From contig JAJEDQ010000143.1 of the NCBI GenBank assembly GCA_022821445.1, positions 1 through 34,040 of the forward strand: DNA of 34,040 nucleotides. The letters run 5' to 3'. This stretch comes from Acidimicrobiia bacterium. GTDB lineage: Bacteria > Actinomycetota > Acidimicrobiia > Acidimicrobiales > Bin134. The notes under the pieces were generated by a model that was given only the letters and a program-made list of their open reading frames with translations, had not been told where the DNA came from and made no database searches. This document shows positions 32,911 to 34,040 of the stretch, in pieces (the first letter of the stretch is position 1; every line of letters starts with the position of its first letter). The translations under genes and the position numbers were made by a program.

Positions 32911-33153
32911 TTGCTGATCGACATCGGCACTTCCCTCATAGCTGTGAACCAGCGGCATAAGCCCGAAGACTCAGCGTTCACAGTCGACTACCGCATCGCC
33001 GAGCAGATGGCCCTGCACTTGCCCGACGACGCGATCAAAGTAGCCGCCTCAGGCATCGGAGTCGAAGGCGGAACCACAGTAGCCGCAGTGCGCGACGCTG
33101 GATACGACGCAGTGCTTGGCGGTTCCGCCTGTGCTGCCGTCGCCCACGACTGA
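32911..33153 (+). pseudogene. C-terminal fragment of indole-3-glycerol phosphate synthase
   Basis: LIDIGTSLIAVNQRHKPEDSAFTVDYRIAEQMALHLPDDAIKVAASGIGVEGGTTVAAVRDAGYDAVLGGSA resembles IGPS strands 6-8; N-terminal two thirds absent. Confidence 0.55.
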
Positions 33154-33347: not shown

Positions 33348-33376
33348 TTGACCTGGGTAAGGGCGTCTTCTAAAAT
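33348..33376 (+). promoter_or_regulatory. Sigma70-type promoter TTGACC-N17-TAAAAT
   Basis: -35 at 33348-33353, -10 at 33371-33376, 17-nt spacer. Confidence 0.65.
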
Positions 33377-33413
33377 AACTGATCGCACTCTTGTAACTAA
33401 GGTGCCTAGATGC

Positions 33414-33419
33414 AAGGAG
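33414..33419 (+). promoter_or_regulatory. Shine-Dalgarno AAGGAG
   Basis: 10 nt before ATG 33430; no comparable SD before ATG 33456. Confidence 0.7.
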
Positions 33420-33429
33420 CCTGACACTG

Positions 33430-33456
33430 ATGTGGTCCCCCCCCTTAGCGCCGTGA
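33430..33456 (+). other. Leader mini-ORF MWSPPLAP* containing a C8 tract; its TGA overlaps the next ATG (TGATG)
   Basis: ATG TGG TCC CCC CCC TTA GCG CCG TGA, preceded by a strong SD. Confidence 0.55.
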
Positions 33457-34040
33457 TGGCGCGCAAGCGCCTGTGTGCGCTGTTGGCCTTGGTGGCGTTG
33501 CTCTCGGGAGCGTTTCTGCTTGACGCTCGGTTGCCGGCAGAAGCCCGCGCCGACAGCGACCCCGCACCGGCGGCGTGCGATACGGCTGACGCCGTCAGCA
33601 AGGCGCGCGCCGCGTTCGACTGGCACGACCGCCATGGCACGCTGACGCCGATGTTCTGGCGCATCCTGAACACGCTCGGCGCCGAGAACCTGCCCGCCAA
33701 GCCCGCCGAGGTGGCCGACGACACCATCACCGCAACAGATGTGGAAACGTTCAGCAACGGCAAGGCGTGGGCAGGGTGGCAGCCGATAGTCGACGCGCTC
33801 AAATGCACCGAAAAAGCCGCCGAAGACACCGACGATGGTACCGGCACAGACGACGACACCGGTGGCCAGGACAGCCAAGACACCGGCCAGGACTCGCAGC
33901 AGCAGAGCCAGCAGAGCCAGCAGAGCCAGCAGGACTCGCAGCAGCAGAGCCAGCAGGACTCGCAGCAGCAGAGCCAGCAGGACTCGCAGCAGCAGAGCCA
34001 GCAGGACTCGCAGCAGCAGAGCCAGCAGGACTCGCAGCAG
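33456..34040 (+). CDS. Secreted Asp/Ser/Gln-repeat protein, partial (open at window end)
   Basis: MARKRLCALLALVALLSGAFLLDARLPAEARA signal peptide, then CDTADAVSKARAAFDWHDRHGTLTPMFWRILNTLGAENLPAKPAEVADDTITATDVETFSNGKAWAGWQPIVDALKC, acidic linker, DSQQQSQQ repeats; 195 codons open to the last base. Confidence 0.75.
   Translation, partial: MARKRLCALLALVALLSGAFLLDARLPAEARADSDPAPAACDTADAVSKARAAFDWHDRHGTLTPMFWRILNTLGAENLPAKPAEVADDTITATDVETFSNGKAWAGWQPIVDALKCTEKAAEDTDDGTGTDDDTGGQDSQDTGQDSQQQSQQSQQSQQDSQQQSQQDSQQQSQQDSQQQSQQDSQQQSQQDSQQ
33933..34040 (+). repeat. 24-bp tandem repeat GACTCGCAGCAGCAGAGCCAGCAG, 4.5 copies to the window end
   Basis: Units start at 33933, 33957, 33981, 34005 and 34029 (half unit), identical in sequence; a 42-bp variant precedes at 33891-33932. 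Confidence 0.97.

Follow-up and report, generated by a model that had tools for sequence, protein, structure and literature searches.

The window, the whole stretch of DNA that was analysed, is the entire contig G000:C47 (34,040 bases) from a 3.41 Mb draft assembly of an Acidimicrobiia bacterium in 256 contigs. Its longest homopolymer is a run of eight cytosines that begins at +7 from ATG 33430 and lies behind a Shine-Dalgarno (SD) sequence, which places a homopolymer inside the translated 5′ region of a gene for a secreted protein (Table 1). An earlier note on this DNA had assumed a canonical promoter upstream. We found one, and it was the sole promoter-like site between 33150 and 34040, where shuffled sequences gave a mean of 0.0. 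Upstream of the promoter, from 32911 to 33153, is a short frame which by eye we take to be a C-terminal remnant of indole-3-glycerol-phosphate synthase (TrpC). The 3′ end of the secreted ORF is unseen since the ORF is still open at the contig end, and the C-terminal half of the protein was not found when sought in the window's own genome assembly.

Table 1. Features around the C8 tract, in window coordinates.
Feature	Position	Strand	Remark
Sigma-70-like promoter TTGACC-17-TAAAAT	33348..33376	+	10/12 match to consensus
Shine-Dalgarno AAGGAG	33414..33419	+	10 nt to ATG 33430, 12 nt to GTG 33432
Primary start ATG	33430..33432	+	C6 or C9 joins it to the secreted ORF; position kept in orthologues
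Alternative start GTG	33432..33434	+	Other frame, overlaps ATG within ATGTG; in the ORF frame at C8 and C11
C8 tract, proposed slippage site	33437..33444	+	Orthologues have C13 and C15 here
Leader MWSPPLAP then stop, read at C8	33430..33456	+	TGA 33454-33456 shares its A with ATG 33456
Signal peptide MARKRLCALLALVALLSGAFLLDARLPAEARA	33456..33551	+	Own ATG without SD; read by eye
77-aa helical domain CDTADAV...WAGW..ALKC	33576..33806	+	Common to orthologues and large Calx-beta-like surface proteins
DSQQQSQQ-type repeats	33891..34040	+	Run off the contig end; read from sequence

The protein consists of an N-terminal signal peptide (recognised by eye), a 77-aa domain and Q/S-rich repeats. The predicted structure of the domain has four helices with a pLDDT of 91. 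This model found no fold match in the PDB, and a Pfam search with the window ORF and its G414 orthologue returned no match near the cut-off. The domain recurs in large surface proteins across the order, which we take to be Calx-beta-like from our own reading of their repeats. Among relatives the dN/dS of the domain was 0.11 to 0.42, so the protein is not a decaying pseudogene; at the level of the sequence these values show that purifying selection acts on the domain. The closest relative is in G012:C26 (JAJDYE010000029.1), an Acidimicrobiia MAG of the window's genus with 85% identity over the matched stretch and 84% over the domain, on a contig that ends just before the domain. When the leader was sought at DNA level in all 22 genomes of the genus, only the window itself and the edge of the domain in G012 came up, the remaining matches being at chance level. 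The exact locus with its leader is carried by no second genome, G012:C26 being cut at the contig edge. The public genome contigs searched for relatives gave the same G012 record alone, cut at its edge, and the viral contigs searched gave no relative of the gene.

The earlier note had assigned the AAGGAG sequence to ATG 33430, and held that at C8 this frame stops after eight codons, that C9 would join it to the secreted ORF, and that the leader TGA overlaps the ATG of the ORF as TGATG. All of these coordinates hold and the frame readings were borne out, with C6 joining the frames as C9 does. From ATG 33430 the ORF is ON at C6 and C9 and the leader stops at C7, C8, C10 and C11; at C7 or C10 it terminates 10 nt early. 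When the two are fused the product would carry the peptide MWSPPLSAVMAR. Single-base changes in the tract therefore move the downstream ORF in or out of frame, as in phase variation, and at 33454-33458 the leader stop overlaps the downstream start, as in a coupled leader. What the account of the start sites had missed is GTG 33432, whose frame at C8 is that of the ORF. Because this start leads directly into the ORF, the C8 form may be weakly expressed and not fully off.

Two orthologues with 5′ ends were found, both in another family. In G176:C91 (L071) the arrangement is CAGGAG-N10-ATGAATA-C13 and the signal peptide is in frame (ON). In G414:C84 (L227) it is TAGGAG-N10-ATGAG-C15 and the signal peptide is out of frame (OFF), with an intact coding frame of about 550 aa behind the tract. 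Both conserve AGGAG-N10-ATG and neither has a counterpart of GTG 33432. When the orthologues are aligned, the SD, its spacing, CTGATG and the C run are kept and the remaining leader and flanks diverge. Because SD-N10-ATG-poly-C is retained while the leader diverges, the tract has long belonged to the gene and varies in length. Its length is C8 in the window and C13 and C15 in the orthologues, a comparison made outside the window's own species. The frame of the leader is not conserved either, being fused in G176 (C13) and in G414 (C15) belonging to a 51-codon leader that passes the second start. In all three genes the frame one base short of ON ends on the second start codon (TGATG in the window, ATGA and GTGA in the orthologues), a recurrence that we roughly estimate at 5% by chance.

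Slipped-strand phase variation, a coupled leader and a homopolymer error were the three readings that the earlier note had offered, and these comparisons support phase variation best: C13 and C15 stand in the orthologues, and tracts vary in length directly at the same locus for other genes of the genus. A fixed C9 was not seen in the relatives, where C13 and C15 follow the same SD-N10-ATG. We also looked for homologues that start at the second ATG with an SD of their own and lack a C tract, and the orthologues are not built in this way. The gene is common to two families at high identity (G176:C65, 79% over most of the domain), and its neighbours seem different, which suggests that the gene may have moved horizontally together with its tract.

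Long runs of C or G are scarce in this genome. From a first-order Markov model of the window one would expect about 4.7 runs of at least 8 per 34 kb, yet the whole genome holds 23 in 3.41 Mb, which is a strong depletion. Poly-C and poly-G runs are generally under-represented according to a survey of 99 genomes (PMC2831843). Across the genus, ATG followed within 2 to 11 nt by C8 or longer occurred 95 times against 34 in a reversed control (summed columns). For C10 or longer after ATG the counts were 54 against 22 in the window's genus, 44 against 19 in f35 and 19 against 10 in f59. Family f56 showed no enrichment, with 24 in both, and because of this the raw pattern is only a moderate signal. 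Matches that were antisense or within genes (for example L077, L085 and L087) were left out as switches, and tracts at contig ends (L113 and the clearly doubtful C49 of L237) were left out as possible artefacts. The genomes compared are mostly drafts, in which long tracts can be mis-assembled.

Tracts at or near the start were found in other genes of these genomes. Among paralogues of the domain, G414:C38 has C15 and is ON and G414:C44 has C9 and is OFF, while G355:C29 and G119:C18 have C11 and C12 at the start. Two large surface proteins that bear the domain, L210 (G176:C18) and L212 (G280:C16), have G12 ahead of the signal peptide. In both of these, the upstream ATG frame meets a TGA directly past the G12 tract. 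Of two further secreted proteins with the same domain, L169 (G414:C87) and L154 (G415:C141), one has C15 just past the signal peptide and the other C6 in that place. Secreted fibronectin-III proteins begin with ATGA-C14 or similar, and are ON in G012:C9 and OFF in G012:C41 and G003:C35. The window's genome also contains an ATGA-C14 (L122, G000:C140) whose upstream region is like that of the G012 fibronectin-III proteins. No long frame follows this tract within its short contig.

A family of tyrosine recombinases (Pfam Phage_integrase) begins with ATGAATCA-Cn or ATGAAGCA-Cn. Its tract-bearing loci are L231 (G019:C31), L230 (G010:C39), L232 (G012:C15), L114 (G012:C31), L126 (G003:C10), L228 (G019:C6) and L229 (G005:C106). 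Tracts in this family range from C8 to C18, with ON and OFF alleles across genomes at the same locus. At the locus that we call A the tract is C16 and ON in G012, C12 and OFF in G019, and C18 and OFF in G010, the flanks in G019 and G010 being 100% identical over 408 + 1000 bp. At locus B′ it is C16 and ON in G003:C37 versus C8 and OFF in G019:C6. Since B′ is C8 in one genome and C16 in another, tracts of this kind occur naturally in a short C8 state. Judging from these alleles, the recombinases of this family are apparently phase-variable. By our own tally 6 of the 19 scored tract loci are ON and 13 are OFF; the ON share is about one third, as random frames would give.

Eco57I-type methylases are a classic phase-variable target. 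One of them in the window's genome (L238, G000:C200:8500-11478) is split into two frames by a G13 run. Another large ORF (L239, G000:C256:28500-33500), presumably methylase-like by eye, contains a G16 run.

On this evidence we consider it highly probable that a secreted Q/S-repeat protein of the surface or extracellular space is switched at the translational level by slipped-strand phase variation of the C8 tract. The tract in the window would then most likely be the short version of an on/off frame switch whose length varies. Ribosomes would load at AAGGAG and initiate at ATG 33430. At C9 (or C6) leader and signal peptide would form one reading frame and the gene would be ON. With C8 the leader would end after eight codons at the TGA that overlaps the signal-peptide ATG. 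The two remaining sources of expression, re-initiation at TGATG and the weaker start GTG 33432 that overlaps ATG 33430, would keep it low. The lowest level would go with C7 or C10, where translation from ATG 33430 would terminate 10 nt too early. The overlap of leader stop and second start may be a built-in low state, and complete silencing may never occur, since GTG 33432 and ATG 33456 could each express the gene at C8. Slippage during replication would shift cells among these tract lengths. We infer such switching at the window locus in living cells from the tract and its relatives, and the ranking of the three expression states is likewise predicted. The benefit would presumably lie in presenting varied surface proteins to a host, to phage or to grazers.

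The overlapping stop and start also fit a fixed translationally coupled leader, in which ribosomes re-initiate at ATG 33456 and the C run simply encodes proline codons with no switch. The leader has an SD and ATG 33456 has none, and the overlap geometry appears again in one frame of both orthologues (ATGA and GTGA). However, coupling has no need of C13 to C15, the leader is fused in one orthologue and runs for 51 codons past the second start in the other, and similar tracts vary in length elsewhere. We therefore regard a fixed coupled leader as very unlikely; coupling may instead operate within the switch as its weak state. Actinobacteria of high GC content commonly use GTG starts, and GTG 33432, served by the same SD at 12 nt and in the ORF frame at C8, could be the start of an ordinary gene that is on as it stands, with the ATG frame irrelevant. 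This, too, is improbable, and slightly more so than coupling: both orthologues conserve an ATG at 10 nt and lack the GTG, the overlapping ATG is closer to the SD optimum and should compete, and the length-variable tract in relatives is left unexplained. Homopolymers are error-prone under some technologies and the assembly is a draft of 256 contigs, so the true tract might be C9 and the gene an ordinary fused ORF. We give such an error hardly any weight, as C8 is short for a short-read error and G019:C6 provides a second C8 state within the genus. Nor would an error at this single locus account for the relatives: the variation among orthologues (C13 and C15), and with it the phase-variation reading, would stand even if the tract were really C9.

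The shortness of the tract counts against an active switch, as does the finding of the exact locus with its leader in a single genome. Shorter tracts slip less, and the orthologues have C13 and C15 where the window has just C8, so an ancestral phase-variable tract may have been stabilised by contraction to C8 in the window's lineage and the switch may now be dead or frozen. We think this unlikely, though a good deal less so than the preceding alternatives. Short and long alleles coexist at one locus in G019:C6 (C8) versus G003:C37 (C16), and the Pgl system of Streptomyces switches with G8 (PMC4365076). The confidences given to these readings overlap, because a frozen switch is a sub-case of the main explanation.

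Slipped-strand translational phase variation is an established mechanism, Actinomycetota included. In Haemophilus influenzae, work attributed to Dixon and colleagues in 2007 reportedly describes lic2A, a lic-type locus with alternative start codons. Such loci resemble the window in having a repeat near the start codon, alternative starts and possibly graded expression; they differ in that the repeats are tetranucleotides, the genes are for lipooligosaccharide and they are not homologous. Within the Actinomycetota, a G tract separates the secretion signal from the pilin in the sortase-dependent pili of Bifidobacterium breve, where reference and population lengths of the tract differ and mixtures of lengths were measured (PMC9187656). 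As is proposed for the window, a homopolymer sets the frame and hence the expression of a surface protein in a member of the Actinomycetota. The B. breve tract lies between the signal and the mature pilin, whereas that of the window lies before the signal peptide and beside the start codon; the pilin is also unrelated to the window protein, and length mixtures were measured there while switching at the window is inferred. In Streptomyces coelicolor the G tract of pglX was found shortened from G8 to G7 in strains with inactive Pgl, and this phage defence switches at 10^-2 to 10^-4 (PMC4365076). Because the G8 to G7 change accompanies Pgl inactivity, eight bases can suffice in an actinomycete. 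The eight-base G tract of pglX lies inside a methyltransferase gene, whereas the tract of the window is next to the start codon of a secreted protein.

The phasomes of Campylobacter, Helicobacter and Neisseria comprise many genes per genome whose expression is toggled by hypermutable homopolymers or repeats (PMC6321876, PMC2823697, PMC5084427). These are unrelated lineages, in contrast to the uncultured GC-rich Acidimicrobiia studied here. In the open-access literature searched, to the extent that its text was available, we found no description of homopolymeric phase variation in Acidimicrobiia, and the lineage and its tract repertoire appear undescribed there.

We tentatively suggest, as a possibility that we hold with less than even confidence, that these genomes carry a genome-wide phasome of poly-C tracts at start codons that would jointly control eukaryotic-like surface proteins, tyrosine recombinases and DNA methylases. 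The switch at the window locus would then have three built-in levels: high when fused, low when coupled, and off. If this is true, phase-variable recombinases would layer genome rearrangement on frame switching. Animal pathogens are the best-known setting of homopolymer phase variation, and a conserved family of start-codon tracts that vary in length would extend it to Acidimicrobiia. It would also yield a set of surface proteins, recombinases and methylases as candidates for switching, which could be scored directly in metagenome reads that already exist.
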